39,732 bases of DNA from Candidatus Poseidoniaceae archaeon (GTDB taxonomy: Archaea; Thermoplasmatota; Poseidoniia; Poseidoniales; Poseidoniaceae), in NCBI GenBank assembly GCA_938075675.1, contig CALJHE010000003.1:115738-155469 (forward strand), given 5' to 3'. Shown here in pieces: positions 2-33,855 of this stretch. The position numbers and the translations under genes are program-made. Every line of letters starts with the position of its first letter. Positions within the stretch are counted from its first letter, which is position 1. The notes under the pieces are model-generated. The model made no database searches. It was not told the origin of the DNA and was given only the letters and a program-made list of their open reading frames with translations.

Positions 2-3000
2 GTTAGCGATGCGGGTGGTATCGTTCAATTTGATGTGGCGAACTGCACCTCTGTGATGGACTCTGCAGGTCAGGTCACAATTCGTATGCCAATGTCAGTG
101 AATTGGACATGGGACGATGAAAGTAATTTGCAGGCACTGATCTCAGTTGATGATGAATTAGGTCAAGCGGTTGCTGCATGGGAGACCGATTCATTGGACA
201 TGATTGTGGAAAACGATATCCAACTTGACGGACTTCGAGTGTATGAAGAAACAGGCAGGCAATTGTATTCTCAAGATTGGGTGCGGGGTGGATATCTGAT
301 TTCGTTTACCGGCGTCATACACTTCCAAAACTCACAGCTCACTCCGCTAGGTGGTCAATTTGCACTACGAATCTTGGGTCAAAATGTAACCTATGATGGA
401 GACCCAATCGGTGAACCTGTTGAACTTGCACGTGAACAGAATCCTGCATTTGGTGCATTCAACATCACCATCACTTCTCCAATGGAATCAGCTCCTGGCG
501 GCATGGTATTCTATGTGGAAGCCACTGAATTGAAAAACGGTTCAATGTTTACCAATCCAGGGTACAACACAATCCGCCTCGTTCTGGACGGAAACTCGCC
601 TCTCGTCTTGGGCTCCACTCCCCAAGATGGCTCTGAACGTCATGCAGGCCCACCTGCTCCTGGTGGTCAAGCCCTCAGTTTCCTCATTCAAGACTCAGTT
701 GACCCACCGAGCCAAATTACGCTCAACTACTGGATTGGATGCAAGGCAAGTGAATCAATAGGTTGCAGTGATTACAATTTTGATGGTCTGCCGAACGCTA
801 ATGAATACGAAATGAAGGTGCTTAATTCACCGGATACTCAAACAGGAGGTCTAAACATCTTTGATGGGCTTATCGATGACTCAATGCTCGAACATGGCCA
901 ACTTGTTTCCTACTTCATCACCGGTAAGGACGCTCAAGATAACGCTATTGCAATGGGTGGTGGGCCTGTCTGCCCCGACAGTAATACTGCTTGCGGTTAT
1001 GTACCTGGAGAGACTGAACCTGATTGGGACAATGACCTAGGGACATATCGAATACGCGTAGAGTTTGAGCCTGAATTGGACTTAGACAATTCCACAATCC
1101 TAGGCCATGATGATTCATCGCCGCTCCATCCAGGAATCCCGTATACTGCTCAAATTGTTCTCTCAGACCGTAATGGATGGGAAGACATTCAATACATTCA
1201 ATTGGCGCTTGGCGGAGACTTTGAAGACGATGAAAGTTCACTTTTCATCTCCTTGACAAAAGGTCACGATGATATGCCAATCGCCGTAATGGAGTCTGGC
1301 TCGGCGAATATCGCCGTTTCAAACCTCTATTCGAGCGTGAGTCTTGATGAAACTGATAATTCCATCATCAAGATTCTTGCCCGATTCCAACTCACATGGA
1401 CGTTCCCTGAAATCTTTGATACCGACGGGCTAAGTTTGGTGATTCCAAAGATTCTGGTCACAGACTTACCGTGTAACGATATGGAAGTTACGCCGTGTTT
1501 CGAAGCCAAGGAAGGTTTGGGTAACGATGCTTGGAGTCTCGACAACGATTTCCGATTTGATACAATGGAAGGTCACATACGTGCAGTCGAACTCCGTGAT
1601 GGGACAAACCACTACAATTCTGACTTCGAAGAAACTCTCATTGGTGCTGGACAAGCACTTCGAGTCAACGGCAGAATTCTCTTCGCTGAAGATGAAACTC
1701 CGGCGCCTGCAGGTGCATTTGATGTCGTATTTGGGGACTACGATAATACATGGACGACATCAACCCGTGATGATGGTGAGTTCAGTCTCGATTTATTGAT
1801 ACCGTCCGTACCTTCCGGGCATCTTGATTTGCAATTGGGCCTCGGTGATTTGCCAGGTTTCGCAATGGATGAAACCTCTGTCACTCAACGTGTCCGCTTG
1901 GCAGTGGACAGTTCACGACCAACGATTGCAGCCATCACTCTCGACGAAGTCACATCTGGTTCGCCACTCTCGATTGGTGCCTGCGGCGACTTACTTGTGA
2001 TGCTTGAAACACTCGACGACTATGGATTTGATCTGGACGAACCAGCAGTTCTTCACTACAGAGTTCGAGCAGGTGAGGCTGAAATTTCTCGGGGTAGTGT
2101 TCCTCTTCCGGACACGACCCCATTCGGTGAACAGTTCTTCTGGACCGGTAACCTCGACTTGACAGATGCGGGAGCCACGACCCTCCTACCATCGTATATG
2201 GTGGATGTTTGGGTTTCTGGCTCTGATTCTGCCGGTAATCCATTCGATACGATTGGTAATTCAATCTATGAGCCAATTGCGTCATGGTCACTGGCCTTGC
2301 TTGGCCCAAGCATCGACCTCAACGCCGCAACAAGCAGTTTCTCTTGGGACGACCCAAGCCCAATCGCGCAACAATCTGTGAACCTTGATTTTGAGGTACG
2401 TAACCTTGGCGGTAAGGGAGATGTTGCTCTGGTTCTACAACGTGCTGTTGAAGGTGGCTTTTGGGAAAACATTGCTCGTGTTGACATTGTGGCAACGGCT
2501 GGCGGCGACCTCACCGGTTCTCTCCCAACTGTAGCGAACGCTGATGTCGGTGAAAGCATCGAATTCCGTCTCGTTGTCTTAGTTGATGAGGTCGAAATGG
2601 ACCGCACATCACTCGACCCTCTGTTCATCAAGGAACAGACGATTCGTGACGGAGAAGCATTAGCCAAGCAAGCCCAAGAAGGCACTTTCAGTATTGTTCT
2701 CTACATTATAGCGCTCCTTTCACTAAGTATGGCTATGTATCTCTTGGTAATGAATCGCCGAATCCGTGAAGGTGAGTTAGAATCCGGTGCTGAGGACCAA
2801 ACCGAAGAAGTGCTTGAAGAGCTGGAAAAAGGAAAAATGCTTCCAGCAATTGATTCCAACCTGCCTGCTCCAACTGGTTTGACGTCTGGAATACCTCAAC
2901 CAAATCCGTCGGTTGTTTTCAACCCAAATGTTGAGCCAACACCTGCCTCTCTGTCTGCTTCCCTTTCTGCATCTAAACCTGATTCGTCTTCACCAGGTCT

Positions 3001-3187
3001 GGTCCAAAACATCACTTACAATATCACGGATAGTGCAGTCGGAGCAATTCCAACCACGAATTCAGTTAATGATGGTGTGCCAGTTAAAGCTCCTCCACCT
3101 CTACCTCCGACAGGTCTGCCTGAAGGATGGACCCTTGACCAGTGGAATCATTTCGGTTGGCAATACGTTGAATCGATGAAGAAGTGA
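2..3187 (+). CDS. Giant surface protein, type I membrane topology (5' truncated)
   Basis: The reading frame is open from the first bases of the window, so the true start lies upstream; the GTG at 35 is probably internal. The visible ~1060 residues are mostly beta-rich, Asp/Ser/Thr-rich extracellular sequence with occasional Cys pairs. A single hydrophobic segment (about 2687-2755) is followed by basic residues (NRRIREGE) and a cytoplasmic tail of about 145 residues. The tail is acidic, then Pro/Ser-rich, and ends in a GLPEGWTLDQWNHFG motif (3113-3184). The giant subtilase at 28858-33855 has a closely similar C-terminus, so the two share an intracellular tail type. I recognise no catalytic motif; Ig-like or CARDB-like folds are likely. 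Role is inferred as cell-surface binding or structural. A small unknown gene begins 9 bases after the stop, suggesting co-transcription. Confidence 0.85.
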   Translation, partial: VSDAGGIVQFDVANCTSVMDSAGQVTIRMPMSVNWTWDDESNLQALISVDDELGQAVAAWETDSLDMIVENDIQLDGLRVYEETGRQLYSQDWVRGGYLISFTGVIHFQNSQLTPLGGQFALRILGQNVTYDGDPIGEPVELAREQNPAFGAFNITITSPMESAPGGMVFYVEATELKNGSMFTNPGYNTIRLVLDGNSPLVLGSTPQDGSERHAGPPAPGGQALSFLIQDSVDPPSQITLNYWIGCKASESIGCSDYNFDGLPNANEYEMKVLNSPDTQTGGLNIFDGLIDDSMLEHGQLVSYFITGKDAQDNAIAMGGGPVCPDSNTACGYVPGETEPDWDNDLGTYRIRVEFEPELDLDNSTILGHDDSSPLHPGIPYTAQIVLSDRNGWEDIQYIQLALGGDFEDDESSLFISLTKGHDDMPIAVMESGSANIAVSNLYSSVSLDETDNSIIKILARFQLTWTFPEIFDTDGLSLVIPKILVTDLPCNDMEVTPCFEAKEGLGNDAWSLDNDFRFDTMEGHIRAVELRDGTNHYNSDFEETLIGAGQALRVNGRILFAEDETPAPAGAFDVVFGDYDNTWTTSTRDDGEFSLDLLIPSVPSGHLDLQLGLGDLPGFAMDETSVTQRVRLAVDSSRPTIAAITLDEVTSGSPLSIGACGDLLVMLETLDDYGFDLDEPAVLHYRVRAGEAEISRGSVPLPDTTPFGEQFFWTGNLDLTDAGATTLLPSYMVDVWVSGSDSAGNPFDTIGNSIYEPIASWSLALLGPSIDLNAATSSFSWDDPSPIAQQSVNLDFEVRNLGGKGDVALVLQRAVEGGFWENIARVDIVATAGGDLTGSLPTVANADVGESIEFRLVVLVDEVEMDRTSLDPLFIKEQTIRDGEALAKQAQEGTFSIVLYIIALLSLSMAMYLLVMNRRIREGELESGAEDQTEEVLEELEKGKMLPAIDSNLPAPTGLTSGIPQPNPSVVFNPNVEPTPASLSASLSASKPDSSSPGLVQNITYNITDSAVGAIPTTNSVNDGVPVKAPPPLPPTGLPEGWTLDQWNHFGWQYVESMKK

Positions 3188-3196
3188 GTTGACGAA

Positions 3197-3649
3197 ATGT
3201 CTGGTGAAGATACATCCGCTGTGGATGGAATGGTGACGATGCAAGAGCGGATGGTCAACTTGATCAACCAACTCAATATGCCTCTCATTGAGGTTAGTCT
3301 CGTACTCAGTAAACACATTGCAGGTCTCTCGCGTTCACTTGATGAGCACATCAATGCAACCCAGCAAGAGTTTCCCGAAACGGTCACCCATCCATGGCCT
3401 ATTCAGAACGGTGGGGACGAAGAATCGAGTTTCCAATTTGATTTGGAAAAAATCTTCAAGATTATCGATGAAGATAGAATGGATATTTTGGCGACACTCA
3501 TTCGCGTGACTTTGGTTGAAATCGATGCCTCACTCGCAGAGGGGCTTCTTGCTTTACGGCCTTGGGAGGCACTTTCAAGAACACAGTTGTCGAACGCTAA
3601 GAGCCCAGGACAATTGTTTTCACCGATCGAGATTCCTGAAGAGTGGTAA
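3197..3649 (+). CDS. Small helical protein of unknown function
   Basis: A 150-residue protein that I do not recognise. It is predicted mainly alpha-helical and acidic, with no signal peptide, membrane segment or cysteine cluster. Its ATG lies 9 bases after the stop of the giant surface protein, so the two are probably co-transcribed. Inference: a cytoplasmic partner of the upstream protein, perhaps contacting its intracellular tail. An antisense frame across this gene is longer in places but has no protein-like composition. Confidence rests on the tight spacing and on amino acid composition like its neighbours. Confidence 0.7.
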   Translation: MSGEDTSAVDGMVTMQERMVNLINQLNMPLIEVSLVLSKHIAGLSRSLDEHINATQQEFPETVTHPWPIQNGGDEESSFQFDLEKIFKIIDEDRMDILATLIRVTLVEIDASLAEGLLALRPWEALSRTQLSNAKSPGQLFSPIEIPEEW

Positions 3650-21408: not shown

Positions 21409-23829
21409 TCATATATCCAAGTCATCGTCGATTGGTAGACCAATGTTTCGTGGCTGAGCAGGAATACTTGTCTGAACTTGACGTGGTGGTGGTTGGACGG
21501 CTGACGCTTCAGTGTCTCGGGAAGGATGTGGTTTAGCTTGGACATCGGCCAAGAGTGCATCAGCGGAGGAAAGCAAATCATTGGAACTGTGGTGTTCAAG
21601 AACAGTCGTGGCGGCCTTCGTTAAGGATGCATCAACTGGTGCTTTTGCTTCTTTGTACCCCCCTGAACGTCTTTGAAATGCTTGTTTAAAATGCTCTGGA
21701 TTGACCTCGAACGATGATTCTTGGACAGTTTCTTGCTCACTTGGTGCAAACTTGTTCATCCAATCTCCTACCGCTTCTTGTGGTTTTGTCTGATTGAGGG
21801 CATCCATTTCCATCTGCTCAGTAGTTCGTTGATTGCGTGCAACAACGGATTTGTAAATGACGACTCCGGAAAACAGAATCGCTCCAATCATCAATGACCA
21901 CGCCTTGAGAACATCAAAACCAGTTGACATCATTCCGAACAGGTCGAATGATTCCTCTTCAACCTCCTCTTGCCAAGGTACACCTGTATATTCTCCAGTT
22001 GAGGTGTGAACAAACTCGGTGCTCGGTTGGAATTGTGATCGTACGGTTGTTTTAACCAAAACTGTTCCGTTGCTCGGTTGATCTTGAGGTAAATCAATCC
22101 AGGCTCGAACAGTAAAGTTGTATCCTATTGGAATATCACTCACTTCAAACGATCTTGGAAATTCAACCCCCTCCTCATAAACCGCCATGTTTGGGGGTAG
22201 GAATGACATTGGCGTCGAATGTGATGACTGCAATTGGACAAGTAAACCGTCTGCAGTGTTCCCTTCGTTCCTCAACGTCATGGCGATTGACAACCTTCCG
22301 TTGGAATCAGTTTCTTCAATGACATCGGTGAAGTTCCATCGAATGACTGGCGCAATTTTTACTGGTATGCGAGAAATCCCAACTGTTGTGTCCGAGTTGA
22401 ACAGGAATGTCTCAACAACAACTTCTCCGAGTTCGAATGCCAATGCAGATGCGTTCGCAGTTATTTCGATCAGTGTCAAGTTGATGTACTCACCAGGTTG
22501 TAATTCAGTTGTCGTTTGAATCAATTGGGCCGAAACAAATTCGGGCACTTGCTTAATCGAATATTCGAAAGAGTCAACAGCATTGCCTCCGTTGTATACC
22601 TCTACATCAGCGCTGCAACTCTCGGATGGCAACAGGGATTGACATGCATCAGTTCGGAGTTGAACGCTACCGCTACGTTCCCAACCAATTGATGCGCCGA
22701 TGTCGACAATTCGCGTGTTTTGAATTGCTCCACCTGCGAACACCCGTAGTCGGATATCGATTTCACTCGAGTACTCCAACGGTGCTTGAAAACCTATTTT
22801 GATTGTTCTCGATTCATTCGGCTGAAGGATGTTCTCTTCAAGTCCACCAAAGATGGCCATTGTCCAACCGTCAATTGCTATTCGGTCAAAGTTTGGAATG
22901 TCCGGAATTGCCTCTCCTTGAGCGTTAATTGCTTCGAGTGTGATGTTAAGATAATTTGGAGAGTTGCCAGTGTTTCTTACATCGATGGAGACTCTCTCGA
23001 CACCTCCAGGTTCAATGACTGCATCATCCCCAACTTGATCGATTGAGGCGTTTTTGAATTCGTTCATGAGCATGTCAAAAGACCATTGTACAATTCTACC
23101 ATCAATGCCAGATACCGCACTGATTTGAAACCGAGGCCCATCGTTATACAGCGGTGAACCATCGATAACTGACGGTACGTCGACCCACAAATAAACGTAA
23201 GTGGCCGTGCCTCCTTGAACGGTTTCATAGGCGTTCAGTCCATCGGTTGAATTCATCGTCCAGCCCCAATTCCAACCGGATACTGTGTAGAGATTGAAAG
23301 TAACATCATCATCCATGGAGGCGTTGTTGGTGATGTTCATGGCCACGGACGTTCTCGTGTTTGGCGATACGATGAATGAAGACACACCTGTTGCGCCAAA
23401 ATTGAGATTTGAGTATGGTGCTACTTTGGCTTGAAATGTTTCGGTTTGGTTCCAATTCACATCGTTTGGTGACGTAAACAGAATCGATAGATTGTAGAGA
23501 CCATACCCGGCATCGAGACTGGCAGAAAGATTGAATTTAACCTGTCGCAAATATCCACTTTCCAGAGTTTTACTCAGCGGCAGCCCCGTTATTGTCAAAT
23601 TATCGACTGCATCTACCAAGTCAAAATGGAATGTGCCTGCTTGGTCACCCAGATTGTGGAGTGTGAACAAAACTTCAATTTGTTCTCCTCTATGGACAAT
23701 AAATTGATTGAGACCAATCACGTCAACTTGCGTCTCCCGGCCCTCAACTGTCGATGTCTCACCTGCAGCACCCACGAGAGGAACAATTACATGCATCAGT
23801 ATGAGTATCCCAATGAACACACTGCGCAT
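21409..23829 (-). CDS. Large surface protein with repeated Ig/CARDB-like domains
   Basis: An 806-residue type I membrane protein. I chose the ATG at 23829 (MRSVFIGILILMHVIVPLVG, a signal peptide), which has GGAGGGTTT directly upstream; the open frame continues to 23958 but that part lacks protein character. The ectodomain (about residues 25-630) has several repeats of a beta-sandwich with an N-G/T-G-N motif (VRNTGNSPN, VYNGGNAVD, LRNEGNTAD), typical of CARDB/NEW3-like domains, plus many N-glycosylation sequons. A transmembrane helix (641-661) is followed by a cytoplasmic tail of about 145 residues with DWMNKFAPSE and Pro/Gln-rich ends. It lacks the GWTxxQW tail motif. No enzyme motif; adhesion or structural role inferred. 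rnhB follows 9 bases downstream. Confidence 0.85.
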   Translation of the reverse strand: MRSVFIGILILMHVIVPLVGAAGETSTVEGRETQVDVIGLNQFIVHRGEQIEVLFTLHNLGDQAGTFHFDLVDAVDNLTITGLPLSKTLESGYLRQVKFNLSASLDAGYGLYNLSILFTSPNDVNWNQTETFQAKVAPYSNLNFGATGVSSFIVSPNTRTSVAMNITNNASMDDDVTFNLYTVSGWNWGWTMNSTDGLNAYETVQGGTATYVYLWVDVPSVIDGSPLYNDGPRFQISAVSGIDGRIVQWSFDMLMNEFKNASIDQVGDDAVIEPGGVERVSIDVRNTGNSPNYLNITLEAINAQGEAIPDIPNFDRIAIDGWTMAIFGGLEENILQPNESRTIKIGFQAPLEYSSEIDIRLRVFAGGAIQNTRIVDIGASIGWERSGSVQLRTDACQSLLPSESCSADVEVYNGGNAVDSFEYSIKQVPEFVSAQLIQTTTELQPGEYINLTLIEITANASALAFELGEVVVETFLFNSDTTVGISRIPVKIAPVIRWNFTDVIEETDSNGRLSIAMTLRNEGNTADGLLVQLQSSHSTPMSFLPPNMAVYEEGVEFPRSFEVSDIPIGYNFTVRAWIDLPQDQPSNGTVLVKTTVRSQFQPSTEFVHTSTGEYTGVPWQEEVEEESFDLFGMMSTGFDVLKAWSLMIGAILFSGVVIYKSVVARNQRTTEQMEMDALNQTKPQEAVGDWMNKFAPSEQETVQESSFEVNPEHFKQAFQRRSGGYKEAKAPVDASLTKAATTVLEHHSSNDLLSSADALLADVQAKPHPSRDTEASAVQPPPRQVQTSIPAQPRNIGLPIDDDLDI

Positions 23830-23922
23830 AAACCCTCCAAGCCATTCACCCTTTGAACTTCTCCTAATCTTTGCATCACGGCAGTTCGCAGTCTTCATCA
23901 AGCAGGAGTGGTTCGGAGCGTT

Positions 23923-24303
23923 ATGCCTCCTTTCTGGCCCTTCGGGAAAAAGAAGCAACCATTACAGTTGGATGAGCCTGAACCTCAAGCGATTGTTTAC
24001 CGTAAAGACTCAGGAACCACCGAACAAACACTAGCGGACTCCTCTCACCGTGAATCAGACGATTATATGGCAGCAGTGTCGTTGTTCGGCAACGGTGATA
24101 CTACAATTAAAAGAGCTGAAGAACAATCACAATTTTACGAAGGTATCGTCGATTCAAGTACGCATGAGACTTCTACTCAAATTGATTTCACATGGATTCA
24201 TCATTCGGATGGATACCATTACAAGAAAAAGCAAGACGGTTCATTTGACCCTGTTCCTCACCAAAAGAACGACGATGGAACATATGTTCCTTACCAATCT
24301 TAG
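23923..24303 (+). CDS. Small protein of unknown function
   Basis: A 126-residue protein from the ATG at 23923 (MPPFWPFGKKKQP). It starts with an aromatic/basic patch, then an acidic linker, and ends with a compact segment rich in His, Tyr and Lys (DFTWIHHSDGYHYKKKQDGS, then DPVPH and YVPYQS), which could be a small beta domain. No signal or membrane helix, though the N-terminal WPFGKKK could contact a membrane. It is divergent from the surface protein start at 23829, with a gap of 93 bases that probably holds both promoters. Its stop overlaps the stop of pheT by the four bases TTAG. I do not recognise the family. Confidence 0.7.
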   Translation: MPPFWPFGKKKQPLQLDEPEPQAIVYRKDSGTTEQTLADSSHRESDDYMAAVSLFGNGDTTIKRAEEQSQFYEGIVDSSTHETSTQIDFTWIHHSDGYHYKKKQDGSFDPVPHQKNDDGTYVPYQS

Positions 24304-28857: not shown

Positions 28858-31800
28858 GTGTTGAAAAAGGTAATTGATTTCGACAAGGCCATGCAGGGCA
28901 TTCGACAACCATTGCTCATGCTCCTTGTGCTTCTGCTTACATCGGTAAGCCCGATGTTAATCGATGATTCTTCTTCGACCGATTCACTTGCTAGTAATGA
29001 TTCAAAGCAACTTTCAGAGGCTGAACGCCTCAACTTGGCTCAGCAGTTATGGTCTCCGCTTGACTCCTCGAGCATTTTCGCCACAGATCTTCAAGATTCA
29101 AGCGGTATTTTACGACTTCAATCAGGCGAGTATGACCCGTTGTTAACCGACGGACCTGTCCTCAACAATGCCTTCATCGATTCGCAAGACCCTTCACAAA
29201 CTGGACTGGCGATGCTTCAATTGCACGAACACGATGGAACTGTTCTTCATTCACTCTCGAAAACATATGGCTTAACGCCTCTCGATTTCATCGCTGATGA
29301 AGGATGGCTTGTTCGACTACCAGAACCTCCAATGGCTTCGTTAGAATTGCTTCAATCCGATGAACGTGTCCGCTGGGCAGGTCCGCAACACCCGGGTTGG
29401 AGGATTCACAGTGAGCTACTCTCGCCTTCAGAGCACACACATCTCGCTCTTGTTCCATCTTCTGATTTGGCACTCGGTGGTCTCGAGTCATTAAGCCTTG
29501 ACTTGTTGAAAATGGGTGCAACTGAAGCATGGTGCGGTGTTGGATTGTGTGAACTAAACTTCCATTCAAACCTACAGTCAACTTTGCTCACCAATATCAT
29601 GCATGACGGCCGTATCATTTGGACAGAACCAACCCATGGATTGACTCTACACAACGCGTTAGCCGGTGGTATTGTCGGAATTGACGGCGTTGCTACGAAT
29701 GCTTCTTTCACACTTGATGGCTCGGGTGAAACAATTGCCATCGCCGATACAGGCATCGATCAAGATCATCCAGATATCAGCGGGAGAGTAGCAGGTGTAT
29801 TCACGAACTTTGGTCTAGATCCATCGCCAATCGATTCGAATTCTGGGCATGGCACTCACGTGGCGCTTTCGGTACTTGGGGACGGTACTGGTGACTCAAG
29901 TGCGCAAGGTGTTGCTCCGTCTGCAAACCTCGTCATGTATGCTCTTGAACACGACCCAACTGGAGTCTTCGGAAGACTTGGCTCCATCTATGACTTACTC
30001 GACGATGCGGAGCAACGAACTGCCCGCATTTCTGTCAATGCATGGGGTTTGAATGGTAATTATGGCCAATACACTGCAGACTCACGTTCAGTCGACCTGC
30101 TGGTAAATCAGAAGAATACTGTCCTTCCGCTGTTTTCTGCTGGAGACCGTGGTACGAGTGGCACTTCACAAGTCACTGCGCCATCGACTGGTAAGAACGT
30201 TCTTTCAGTGGGTACCTCCGAGACTGGCGGCTTAACCGGCACAGTGGCAAACATCTCAAGCCTCGGTCCGAGTCTTGACGGACGAATCAAGCCCGACATT
30301 GTTGCTCCAGGAATTGACATTTGCTCAGGTCTGGCTGAGGAGGCCAAGTATCCAATCGGTTCTTCTTGCGCCACTGGAGTACATGCCGACGGAACGACGA
30401 ATCTCTACATGACGCTTTCTGGTTCGTCTCATGCAACCGCAATTGCTGGTGGTACGACCGCTCTGGTTAGGGAGTTCTTGCGTGAGCAAGTGAACATCAA
30501 TTCGCCTTCCGCATCCCTCATCAAAGCAGCTGTAATCAACGGCGCTACAGACCTTGGAACCCCCGACATCCCAAATGCTGAGGAAGGATGGGGGCAGATC
30601 AATTTGGAGCGTACAGTTCTACCTATGGATGGTTCGTTCGCATTGGATACCTTTTTCGACCACAATAAGGAATTAAATGCAGGATTCGGTTTGCTCTATT
30701 CCTTTGATCTAGACCCGAGCCATGGCGTTGATATCACGCTCGCATGGTCGGATACTGAGGGCAGTGCCAACGCTGCTCAGTCCTCTCCTCGACTCGTCAA
30801 TAATCTTGATTTGGTCATGGTCGACCCTGACGGCAATGAATGGCTTGGTAACGATTTCTTAAATGGGGTTTCGACTACAGGGGGTAGCGCAGACACGCTC
30901 AACAATGTTGAACGGATCAAGGTTGAACCTGGTGTTCTAACCACATCGGGCCAGTGGCAAATCAAAGTACTGCACTCAGGAGGCGTTTCACAGAAATTCA
31001 GTCTCGTTGTTGTTGCTGATGCTACGCCAAATCCACAAGCTGATCTGGCGACATACGATGGTAGCATTGTACCTTCATCCGCAGAACCTCTCAAGAACGA
31101 TTTGATTACTCTTCAACTCGGTTGGATTAACCAAGGCACCCTTTCATCTGGTTCATTTCGGGTGACTCTTGAAGACTTGACAACCGGCCAGACGTTATTC
31201 GATGCGGATCGCTCGTCACTTGGAGTCGGAGAAATCGATTCGTTCTTGTTGCAACACCAATTCACAACAACTGGAACACATTCCATGCGCCTGAGTATCG
31301 ACACACTCGACCAAGTGAACGAAATGAACGACGGAGTATCTGGTGTGGACAATAACATTTGGGAACAAGATATCGAAGTTACAGCACTCGGTGTCCGAGT
31401 TGTCGCCTTGGACGATACAGGCTCAGCACCTACATCTGCAGAGGACCGTGCATTGTCTGCAATCCACACGTTTGACGTTCTCAATGCCTCATCGATTGAT
31501 ATTCCGATCCATATTCTGCATGAGGGGACTGGGGAGCAGCCAGTGACGCTAGCGGTTACAAATGTCCAGAAACCTCAACCCGGCCGTCCTGATTTCCTCC
31601 TCGCTCCTGAAGATTCATGGTCAAAGTCTGTATCTGAAATCGGACCGTACATTGTGCAAGGACAAGGCGAAGTTGGCGATTTCAAAGAACTCAATGTCAC
31701 GCTCGTCAATAATCTCGTCGACCTCTCAAACTCAGAATCACCACGATACGCTCGTGCGGGTACATTCGTCGTTGATATCACTGCACGATACCAATCGCAA

Positions 31801-33855
31801 CCGACGGTCTCTCACACCCAACGAATTACCATCATCGTTCCTCAAGTCACGGATGTTAACATTGGAGCAGCTGGTATCTCAGGTCTCTCGGCAGCACCTG
31901 GTGAATCGACAGGATTCAGCATATCCGTCATGAACATCGGAAACACTCCTGCGCAGTATTCAGTATCGTGTGAATCAGAGAATAGATGGCAGATTCAACT
32001 CGGAAATTCCAATTCATCGACTCTCGAGTTTGAACCGCTGAACATCAAGGAATCCTTGCCAATGCTCATTCAAATCTGGGTTCCACCGGTCTCTAATGGA
32101 GTGCCTGAAGCCGGCTCTACCGATACAGTGACTTGTCAAGTGAATTCACCATCAGACCCGACACTCAACTTCACTCAATCTGTAGAAGTGTTGGTTTTAG
32201 CTCAAGAATCATTTGACAGCGACCTCTATGATGACATTGGACCGATTGGTCCTTCATCTTCAAATCGAAATATTATGGTTGATACAGGTCAACAAGTCAA
32301 TTTGAGTCTAACTGTGGAGAACACAGGTAACACAGAAATCGACTTGGATATCAAAATTCAACCAAGCAACCCACTCTGGCCTATTGAGGTCACCTACATG
32401 GAACAACAAAACAGCCGCCAAGTCTCCCTAACATTACTCGGTGGCCAAGTGGCAACAGTTCATTTCATCATTGGAGTCCCCCCAGTTGCAGAGGAAGGCG
32501 AAGTCAACAATTTCGTTATACGGACTGAACGTACACCGCAATCATTCATTTCCAACACGACTGTATTGAAGGTACGAGATGACCTTTCTATGGACCTCTT
32601 TGGACCCGAATCGGGTGTCATTGAAACTGTCATTTCTTCGGATTTTTCGTTTGGTGAATTTACCGTCGTAAACACCGGTAATGCACCATTAACGCTGAAT
32701 TGGAGCAACGGACTACCTGCTGATGGTTGGGTGGTTGGTTATGCGAATCCGAGCACATACATCGAACCTCGTGAGGAACGAACAGTCCGCCTAGGTTTCA
32801 TACCACCCGCAAATTCTCCTGCAACAGAAAAGGCGTTTGAACTGGTCGCAACCGTCACCGGATTTAGCAATGGCAGATCGGTGCAAAACTCCATCACAGT
32901 CGATGTGGCAGTTGTTGAATCAGTTTTTGCTAATTTTACCGTTCAAGACCCAACAGTTGCGCCGTTTTCCTCTGTAGCCCGTGGTGTTGCTGCAACTCAA
33001 AACATCGTGATACGTAACGATGGTAATGTCCCACTCACCGGGGACCTTCTCTCTCAAGTTCTTGACCAAGAAGGAAATGTTTCATCGGACTGGACTCTTG
33101 TTAGTTCGCCTCTTTCACTCCAAAACCTCGGAGTTGGCGAAGAACTGATTGTTTCTCTGGAACTTACTCCAAGCGCAGAGGCCAAGAAAGGCCTGCACTT
33201 TTCGACATTGAGTCTCACTTCTGATGGGGTCATCATCGGAGTAATTTCCATCGATACGACTGTTAAATCAGCTACAGGAACTGAAGGAATCTTGGGTGAA
33301 TTACCAATATATGTCAGTATCCCTCTTGTTACTATCGTACTGCTTGTAGCAATCGTTGGCGCATTGCGGCTGAAGAAGAGCGGTGAACTCACCGACTCGG
33401 GTGAAGAACTGGTTGCTCCAGATGCCTTTGTCAATCCCGACCATCTCGGGACTCGGCGCAGCGACGCACTTGATATCGGTCAGTCTGTCAATGAACTTGC
33501 AAGCGGTGAGGTTTCATCTGACGAAATAGCCGCTGCTTTGGCTCAATCTCTAGACATCCCATCACCCGTTCCTCAAGCACTACCGCCTGCGGGATTGCCG
33601 CCGACTGGAATGCCTCCAAGAGGTCTGCCACTACCTATGCCTGCTGGCATGCCACCTGCTGGGTTACCGCCAAAGGCACTGCCCCAACTTCCCTTGCCGA
33701 TGCCGGCTCAACCGATACCAGCTCCAATACCAGTCCCTGCTCCAGTAACTCCTGCACCTGCTGCTGGACCGCCACTACCGGCGAGTGGTTTGCCGAATGG
33801 GTGGACAATGGAACAGTGGCAGCACTACGGTCAGCAATGGTTGGACAGGCAGTGA
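28858..33855 (+). CDS. Giant secreted subtilase (S8, KP-43-like) with C-terminal membrane anchor and tail motif
   Basis: A 1665-residue surface serine protease. Start GTG 28858; ATG 28891 is an alternative close to the signal helix (about residues 15-30). A propeptide-like region (about 100-285) precedes the catalytic domain, with Asp297 (IAIADTGID), His331 (NSGHGTHVA) and Ser524 (SGSSHATA, where the usual SMAT is SHAT). A jelly-roll domain with LVNNLDLVMVDPDGNEWLGN matches the beta-barrel of KP-43 type subtilases. Next come CARDB/NEW3-like repeats (MNIGNTPAQ, VENTGNTEI, VVNTGNAPL, IRNDGNVPL), a transmembrane helix (about 1482-1503) and a Pro-rich tail ending GLPNGWTMEQWQHYG (33787-33852). 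Likely role: breakdown of extracellular protein while tethered to the cell. Confidence 0.93.
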   Translation: MLKKVIDFDKAMQGIRQPLLMLLVLLLTSVSPMLIDDSSSTDSLASNDSKQLSEAERLNLAQQLWSPLDSSSIFATDLQDSSGILRLQSGEYDPLLTDGPVLNNAFIDSQDPSQTGLAMLQLHEHDGTVLHSLSKTYGLTPLDFIADEGWLVRLPEPPMASLELLQSDERVRWAGPQHPGWRIHSELLSPSEHTHLALVPSSDLALGGLESLSLDLLKMGATEAWCGVGLCELNFHSNLQSTLLTNIMHDGRIIWTEPTHGLTLHNALAGGIVGIDGVATNASFTLDGSGETIAIADTGIDQDHPDISGRVAGVFTNFGLDPSPIDSNSGHGTHVALSVLGDGTGDSSAQGVAPSANLVMYALEHDPTGVFGRLGSIYDLLDDAEQRTARISVNAWGLNGNYGQYTADSRSVDLLVNQKNTVLPLFSAGDRGTSGTSQVTAPSTGKNVLSVGTSETGGLTGTVANISSLGPSLDGRIKPDIVAPGIDICSGLAEEAKYPIGSSCATGVHADGTTNLYMTLSGSSHATAIAGGTTALVREFLREQVNINSPSASLIKAAVINGATDLGTPDIPNAEEGWGQINLERTVLPMDGSFALDTFFDHNKELNAGFGLLYSFDLDPSHGVDITLAWSDTEGSANAAQSSPRLVNNLDLVMVDPDGNEWLGNDFLNGVSTTGGSADTLNNVERIKVEPGVLTTSGQWQIKVLHSGGVSQKFSLVVVADATPNPQADLATYDGSIVPSSAEPLKNDLITLQLGWINQGTLSSGSFRVTLEDLTTGQTLFDADRSSLGVGEIDSFLLQHQFTTTGTHSMRLSIDTLDQVNEMNDGVSGVDNNIWEQDIEVTALGVRVVALDDTGSAPTSAEDRALSAIHTFDVLNASSIDIPIHILHEGTGEQPVTLAVTNVQKPQPGRPDFLLAPEDSWSKSVSEIGPYIVQGQGEVGDFKELNVTLVNNLVDLSNSESPRYARAGTFVVDITARYQSQPTVSHTQRITIIVPQVTDVNIGAAGISGLSAAPGESTGFSISVMNIGNTPAQYSVSCESENRWQIQLGNSNSSTLEFEPLNIKESLPMLIQIWVPPVSNGVPEAGSTDTVTCQVNSPSDPTLNFTQSVEVLVLAQESFDSDLYDDIGPIGPSSSNRNIMVDTGQQVNLSLTVENTGNTEIDLDIKIQPSNPLWPIEVTYMEQQNSRQVSLTLLGGQVATVHFIIGVPPVAEEGEVNNFVIRTERTPQSFISNTTVLKVRDDLSMDLFGPESGVIETVISSDFSFGEFTVVNTGNAPLTLNWSNGLPADGWVVGYANPSTYIEPREERTVRLGFIPPANSPATEKAFELVATVTGFSNGRSVQNSITVDVAVVESVFANFTVQDPTVAPFSSVARGVAATQNIVIRNDGNVPLTGDLLSQVLDQEGNVSSDWTLVSSPLSLQNLGVGEELIVSLELTPSAEAKKGLHFSTLSLTSDGVIIGVISIDTTVKSATGTEGILGELPIYVSIPLVTIVLLVAIVGALRLKKSGELTDSGEELVAPDAFVNPDHLGTRRSDALDIGQSVNELASGEVSSDEIAAALAQSLDIPSPVPQALPPAGLPPTGMPPRGLPLPMPAGMPPAGLPPKALPQLPLPMPAQPIPAPIPVPAPVTPAPAAGPPLPASGLPNGWTMEQWQHYGQQWLDRQ

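Follow-up and report, generated by a model that had tools for sequence, protein, structure and literature searches.

A short conserved tag on the predicted cytoplasmic tails of surface proteins in the archaeal order Poseidoniales

In the PGF-CTERM/archaeosortase, LPXTG/sortase and MYXO-CTERM systems, many surface proteins of a lineage have one C-terminal signature in common, and this signature precedes a transmembrane (TM) helix and a short basic end. Among the nearest working analogies for the tail reported here are the tips of the SSB and FtsZ tails. The described module nearest in kind to it is the SHOCT domain, which we take to be PF09851. SHOCT is a very short, mostly terminal module of unproved function carried by many different proteins, and its authors obtained a negative result in an oligomerisation test and raised the possibility of a ligand other than SHOCT itself (passages of PMC3581485). 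The C-terminal pentapeptide of chemoreceptors, a further working analogy, recruits the cytoplasmic proteins CheR/CheB (PMC7390727 and PMC8609364).

The tag described here resembles PGF-CTERM, LPXTG and MYXO-CTERM in being a single signature at the C-terminus of many surface proteins of one lineage, but it lies far past the TM helix, on what the charge pattern predicts to be the cytoplasmic side. As in chemoreceptors, a conserved tip ends the cytoplasmic tail of membrane proteins, but here the tip is about 26 residues long and is found on various surface proteins; there is no methyl-accepting receptor among the tag carriers, which match S8 subtilase, arylsulfotransferase, PKD or CARDB families or no Pfam family. 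SHOCT is widespread in bacteria, whereas the tag has been found only in one archaeal order, and unlike SHOCT, the tag has a Pro-rich lead-in and keeps to the predicted cytoplasmic side of TM proteins. Membership in SHOCT was rejected, since Pfam-A scans of the tag and its sister tags gave no SHOCT match at E ≤ 10, a scan limited by the HMMER filters, which drop most matches above about 0.1. The LPxGW start is reminiscent of a WW domain, and the two best matches in a PDB profile search with the tag are the WW-containing Salvador homolog 1; the best E value of 0.05 is not significant, Pfam gives no match and the tag is predicted to be helical, not beta, so that the WW domain was also rejected.

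The window, which is the whole stretch of 39,732 nucleotides that was analysed, contains the features listed in Table 1. The translation of giant surface protein 1 (2-3187) terminates in GLPEGWTLDQWNHFGWQYVESMKK, exactly at 3113-3184, and that of giant surface protein 2 (28858-33855) terminates in GLPNGWTMEQWQHYGQQWLDRQ at 33787-33852. The likeness of the two tails begins earlier, with a common PPLP stretch from 3089 and 33760. The tail is the best match in a whole-protein BLASTP comparison of protein 1 with protein 2 (E 7e-6), and the two tails have 16 ungapped identities, compared with a maximum of 11 in 20,000 shuffles. The sequence-only reading had held that two unlike giant surface proteins end in a nearly identical motif, that a TM helix and a Pro-rich tail precede it and that a third large surface protein lacks it; each of these statements is borne out. 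K/R residues follow the TM helix in both tagged proteins. The frame of protein 1 is 1864 aa long in the source genome and shows no match in a Pfam and NCBIfam scan at E ≤ 1.

Table 1. Coordinates of the surface-protein features in the window.
Feature	Position	Strand	Remarks
Giant surface protein 1	2..3187	+	N-terminal part cut off by the left edge of the window
Protein 1, C-terminal TM helix IVLYIIALLSLSMAMYLLV, then MNRRIREGEL	2693..2749	+	Kyte-Doolittle mean 2.52
Protein 1, predicted cytoplasmic tag APPPLPPTGLPEGWTLDQWNHFGWQYVESMKK	3089..3184	+	Last 24 residues are 3113-3184
150-aa soluble-looking protein directly downstream of protein 1	3197..3649	+	
Third surface protein, C-terminal TM, without tag	21409..23958	-	No profile match there
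Giant surface protein 2, S8 subtilase with long ectodomain	28858..33855	+	
Protein 2, N-terminal hydrophobic stretch, putatively signal-peptide-like	28912..28959	+	
Protein 2, Peptidase S8 domain, residues 288-579	29719..30594	+	PF00082, E 4.9e-39
Protein 2, C-terminal TM helix LPIYVSIPLVTIVLLVAIV, then GALRLKKSGE	33301..33357	+	Kyte-Doolittle mean 2.63
Protein 2, predicted cytoplasmic tag AAGPPLPASGLPNGWTMEQWQHYGQQWLDRQ	33760..33852	+	AlphaFold2: extended Pro stretch, then helix over last ~14 residues

The tails have a common layout, in which a TM helix is followed by K/R residues, a variable Pro/acidic linker and the tag PPLPxxGLPxGWTxEQWxxYGxxYL. The retrieved loci, which are part of all the places found, gave 147 distinct tails, many of them mutually orthologous; without six that have at most 120 residues upstream, 141 remained. 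A TM helix, defined as a hydrophobic 19-mer with a Kyte-Doolittle mean of at least 1.6 no more than 250 residues before the tag, is present in 139 of these 141 tails; the remaining two rows are one protein, whose TM helix comes after the tag. By the same definition, a TM helix is seen in 12 of 317 control segments of 250 residues taken from the ectodomains of the same frames. In five genomes for which every strong match was examined, a TM helix precedes the tag in 34 of 35 cases. The linker from the nearest TM helix to the tag is 25-140 residues long with a median of 65 (139 tails), is not conserved and is rich in Pro, Ala, Glu and Ser, and 0-69 residues (median 3) separate the end of the tag from the stop. 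The mean number of K/R residues is 3.01 just after the TM helix and 0.27 just before it, with more after than before in 132 tails, equal numbers in 6 and fewer in 1. By the positive-inside rule, this K/R pattern puts the tag on the cytoplasmic side, the topology being based only on hydropathy and charge. The charge pattern and the distance from the TM helix thus uphold two earlier proposals, namely that the motif is cytoplasmic and that it is not a sorting signal of the PGF-CTERM type.

A lineage-specific enzyme or export factor might nevertheless read the tail as a cue for placing, anchoring or shedding the surface protein. The C-terminal position of the tag after a TM helix in 139 of the 141 tails would suit such sorting or processing, as would the sub-threshold choice-of-anchor matches of some ectodomains and an archaeosortase A homologue encoded in the source genome (TIGR04125, E 1.8e-28). 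A sortase-type signal as such was rejected on the position of the tag 25-140 residues after the nearest TM helix in 139/139 tails, and this distance and the K/R residues set the tag apart from sortase-type signals. The tag also occurs N-terminal of the TM helix in a SAP-domain protein, and no dedicated enzyme gene recurs beside the tag genes of different carrier clusters, so that sorting or processing appears unlikely. The archaeosortase A homologue is at L258:1622-2623 (minus strand, G000:C30) and adjoins a gene with an EYPxGSG tail on the opposite strand. PF09721 exceeds its cut-off in 0 of 26 genomes, a model that also missed the homologue matching TIGR04125.

A profile of the two tails detects 10 copies of the tag in the source genome at E ≤ 3.6e-9, the next match having an E value of 0.03. 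Profile A2, which was built from these ten copies, has a match at E ≤ 0.01 in every one of the 145 genomes sampled from the order (145/145); genomes in the family of the source genome (f1) have 5-12 matches each, and those in the sister family (f2) have 1-7. Most genomes of the order encode several tag proteins, and some have one detected copy only. In a sample of 252 genomes of the phylum, A2 matches 66 genomes, all of which belong to the order (66/66), and none of the 186 genomes outside it (0/186), five of which are of the same class; when the non-matching genomes are sorted by kinship, the first ones are already outside the order. A scan for the pattern GLPxGWTx[ED]Q in one genome per species (84,980 species) found at least 445 relatives and at least 79 loci, and the loci among the matches listed are labelled Euryarchaeota, euryarchaeote, MGII, Poseidoniales, one of its families or Poseidonia, save L052. 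The tag is found only in one archaeal order and is broader there than had been stated from the window; the further occurrences in the lineage on which the sequence-only reading depended are many. L052 (CALDQY010000050.1) lies in a MAG labelled Rhodobiaceae bacterium; this contig encodes a typical relative of protein 1 and probably belongs to Poseidoniales and was mis-binned. Viruses were rejected as carriers, because the two loci on viral contigs look like chance matches and their frames are not of the TM-linker-tag type.

Eight positions are invariant in all 34 tails from five genomes (P-8, G-5, L-4, P-3, W0, Q4, W5 and G9, where the W of GWT is 0), and G-1 differs once among the 34. The position count over 147 tails agrees with this set, a count that is partly biased because 79 of the loci were chosen with GLPxGWTx[ED]Q. 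All synonymous codons occur at the counted Pro, Gly, Leu, Thr and Gln positions, indicating that selection acts on the protein. A recently spread DNA element was rejected on this full use of synonymous codons, together with the finding that the tails track their carriers. AlphaFold2 run on 94 tails predicts an extended stretch followed by one helix at residues 44-57 of 58, with a mean pLDDT of 80.7 and block pLDDT values of 85-89 over the last 28 residues; since the pTM is 0.42, packing of the Pro stretch on the predicted helix is not established. Foldseek with the 58-residue model gives no match in the PDB, and no family covers the tag in Pfam and NCBIfam scans of the proteins or segments.

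The predicted helix has an invariant Gly among conserved aromatic residues, raising the possibility that tag helices pair with each other and thereby cluster or dimerise the surface proteins with no separate reader. The presence of several tag proteins in most genomes and the lack of a clear partner gene nearby would agree with such self-association. However, the invariant P-8, G-5, L-4 and P-3 exceed the needs of a pairing helix, and some genomes have a single detected copy. The oligomerisation test was moreover negative for the analogous SHOCT domain (PMC3581485, in part), and self-association is considered improbable. The same short predicted helix with its conserved aromatic residues could instead lie with its Trp/Tyr side chains on the inner face of the membrane and merely pin the tail there. 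Such an interfacial anchor seems quite improbable, since the conserved PPLPxxGLPxG and the invariance of Gln and Gly point to specific contacts and basic residues are rare at the conserved positions of the helix.

When ectodomains are grouped by BLASTP matches of 120 or more residues at E ≤ 1e-10, those of 137 tails fall into nine clusters. The best matches between clusters have E values of 2.7e-7 (cluster 2 with 6), 3.4e-6 (2 with 4) and 1.4e-5 (4 with 6), and the best match between clusters 1 and 3 has an E value of 0.001. To judge from these similarities, clusters 2, 4 and 6 probably share distant domains, and since they are linked, the independent carrier groups are fewer than nine. The Pfam matches of the carriers are to S8 subtilase, arylsulfotransferase (PF05935, E 4.5e-20), PKD and CARDB families, and five of eight cluster representatives have no Pfam match at E ≤ 0.01. 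Some ectodomains show sub-threshold NCBIfam matches to the choice-of-anchor T and V families, and choice-of-anchor families elsewhere carry exchangeable anchors. Clusters 2, 3, 4 and 5 have members in both f1 and f2, suggesting that the tag is older than the split between these families if the cluster members are orthologs. For 100.7 of 137 tails, the nearest tail comes from a protein of the same ectodomain cluster, compared with a shuffled mean of 21.9, and the corresponding values are 48.4 and 21.8 when only tails sharing 20 or fewer of 26 residues are compared. These observations suggest that the tags are old and have been kept with their carriers.

The exception in topology is a SAP-domain protein (L133; L156 is the same protein), in which a SAP domain (PF02037, E 1.1e-8) is followed by an acidic linker, the tag, a TM helix and an ectodomain. 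This protein has strong relatives (best E ≤ 1e-24) in 135 of 145 genomes of the order. Among 50 loci of SAP proteins, comprising the 30 best matches and 20 picked for spread, the tag is present in nine, from genera g17 and g15, and absent from 41, three of which (L164, L184 and L185) end at a contig edge. Since the tag is internal and precedes the TM helix in the SAP-domain protein, a terminal position is not required, and the predicted topology places the tag on the cytoplasmic side in either membrane orientation. The earlier description of the motif as C-terminal, after a TM helix, thus holds for most tails, in which the tag is near the stop and a TM helix precedes it, but not for this protein; unrelated soluble carriers did not turn up, as none of the 141 tails preceded by more than 120 aa is on a protein that lacks a TM helix. 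The SAP-domain membrane protein is a possible tether between chromosome and membrane. The protein at L156:2320-4644 and its relatives L157-L206 are conserved, and the acidic linker often has EAEVxEAEV-like repeats.

Terminal hydrophobic helices can act as degrons, and the tag, which is predicted to be cytoplasmic and is mostly near the end of the protein, might be a handle for turnover or quality control, recognised by an AAA+ protease or a chaperone in the cytoplasm. It would be atypical of a degron, however, to be nearly invariant across different proteins and to stay with the same carriers, and the copy in the SAP protein is internal, making this role very unlikely.

There are also sister tags, one of which takes the place of the main tag on orthologs of protein 1. 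A tandem divergent tag, PxGWSxExxxxWLxGPxPxGWxxxQWxxF, reaches E < 1e-10 in 31 of the 36 f1 genomes sampled and in 0 of 30 f2 genomes, and a profile comparison relates it to the main tag with 93%. It terminates a different surface protein after a TM helix in the three loci read (L014, L152 and L155). The copy in the source genome lies at G000:C5:91747-91884 (L208), and the carrier frame is about 1750 aa long in most genomes. The DEQLL tag, [WY]TDEQLLxxGWTxEQIxxxR, is found at E ≤ 1e-4 in 20 of 66 genomes of the order and 0 of 186 others, and a profile comparison shows weak similarity between it and the main tag (44%). In 28 loci it lies after the last TM helix in 17, four of which have two TM helices, before the first TM helix in 10, and in a short frame without a TM helix in one. 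On the protein-1 orthologs of g14 and g18 (L310, L311 and L313), the DEQLL tag replaces the GLPxGWT tag. These orthologs are about 43% identical over 980 residues of protein 1 and about 43% identical to full-length protein-1 relatives over 1740-1845 residues; a DEQLL tag at the same place on orthologs is expected if the function of the tail is kept. The DEQLL-tag loci are L310, L311, L313 and L314-L341, with the tag at C-terminal or N-terminal ends predicted to be cytoplasmic, and at about 4300-4520 of L310 the cytoplasmic tail with this tag has an EF-hand-like segment (EF-hand_6, E 5e-4, below the cut-off). A third type, the EYPxGSGxWxxRxxxxxxW tail, occurs in 39 of 66 genomes of the order, and the two matches outside the order each span a stop codon. 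It is the C-terminus in the seven loci read and has no Pfam match. In the source genome, other surface proteins bear the Trp-rich form DGxEYLEYPxGSGxWxxRxxxxxxWxxW after a TM helix, at G000:C30:31681-31788 and G000:C29:4778-4873 (L258 and L261).

We infer, with a probability of about 0.6, that the tag is a cytoplasmic docking module on a flexible tether and that it is recognised by one common partner. The tails have the layout of docking tags, with a cytoplasmic side as predicted by charge, a variable linker, an invariant tip and several different carriers. Presence throughout the order, the TM helix with its K/R pattern, the nine ectodomain clusters, the SAP variant and the invariance of the tag argue for docking, and so do the codon use, the retention of tags with their carriers, the predicted helix and the exchange of tags on orthologs. 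The Pro-rich part and the aromatic face of the short helix would be read by one cytoplasmic or membrane-peripheral partner, and a single intracellular scaffold may thus recruit or cluster proteins as different as the subtilase, the predicted arylsulfotransferase and the PKD/CARDB-type proteins. Against docking stand the failure of neighbour genes and candidate families to yield a partner, the pTM of 0.42 and the Foldseek search without match, the number of independent carrier groups below nine, the 41 of 50 SAP-protein loci lacking the tag and the protein-1 orthologs of g14 and g18, which do without the main tag; invariance alone would also fit self-association or a sorting/processing signal. 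The mode of action, tethered docking, would be of a known kind. The tag family, its predicted cytoplasmic placement across a whole archaeal order and the exchange of sister tags are undescribed as far as searches of the available portions of the open-licence literature go: no description of such tails was found there, including the searchable parts of PMC6461757, PMC6864105 and PMC6741140, and the motif strings occur only in one unrelated paper.

The suggestion that the tag docks to a common intracellular partner thus survives as a probable function, but the search for a co-occurring partner found none. No convincing neighbour gene is shared across clusters in 79 loci of 3-14 kb. When tag genes and loci not assigned to a cluster are put aside, each neighbour family present in at least four loci accompanies one carrier cluster, with the single exception of a family of 272 aa in five loci of clusters 3 and 7. 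The family of the 150-aa protein downstream of protein 1 is specific to the order, being present in 64 of 66 genomes of the order and 0 of 186 others in the phylum sample. This protein is disfavoured as the reader, because it also adjoins a gene of about 1900 aa unlike protein 1 in L308, L309 and L312 and was not found in the tag-bearing genomes G017 and G044. The EYPxGSG tails were rejected as universal readers of the PPLP part, because they occur only in the 39 of 66 genomes given above. Flotillin and thrombospondin genes have been described as widespread in the order by Rinke et al. (part of PMC6461757). In our scans, Band_7/flotillin-type proteins are present in 139 of 145 genomes of the order, in 30 of the 33 better ones and in 14 of 14 controls, a distribution that neither supports nor excludes a role as reader.

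Poseidoniales have been described as more abundant than any other planktonic archaea in the surface ocean and have no cultured representatives; the traits inferred for them include adhesion and protein degradation (sections of PMC6461757). It is a tentative and rather doubtful idea that this order has its own inside-out organisation of the cell surface, in which a few cytoplasmic mini-tags (GLPxGWT, tandem PxGW, DEQLL-GWTxEQI and EYPxGSG), on membrane proteins in both orientations, would engage dedicated intracellular adaptors that link proteases and adhesin-like proteins of the outer face to a common scaffold, and through the SAP member perhaps to the chromosome. If this were true, the system would correspond, in archaea, to the cytoplasmic tails by which eukaryotic adhesion receptors bind adaptors. 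The tag also suggests that a tail common to several surface proteins of a prokaryote need not be an anchoring signal but can be a docking tag inside the cell. Since the tag is nearly invariant, specific to the order and unannotated, a 26-residue bait peptide would offer a direct handle on surface organisation.

The genome G002 belongs to the same genus as the source genome. A crude filter for proteins with a single C-terminal TM helix gave 21 candidates in a 400-kb sample of it; two of the 21 bear the main tag, and a third tag gene in this sample was missed by the filter. Two more tail types follow a C-terminal TM helix in the same sample, at L248 (g186) and L254 (g284); one terminates in GGDYDYALDQTVYKGEECGTWRMNEDKTFTRIE, and the other has PPLPPLP repeats and a zinc-ribbon-like end.
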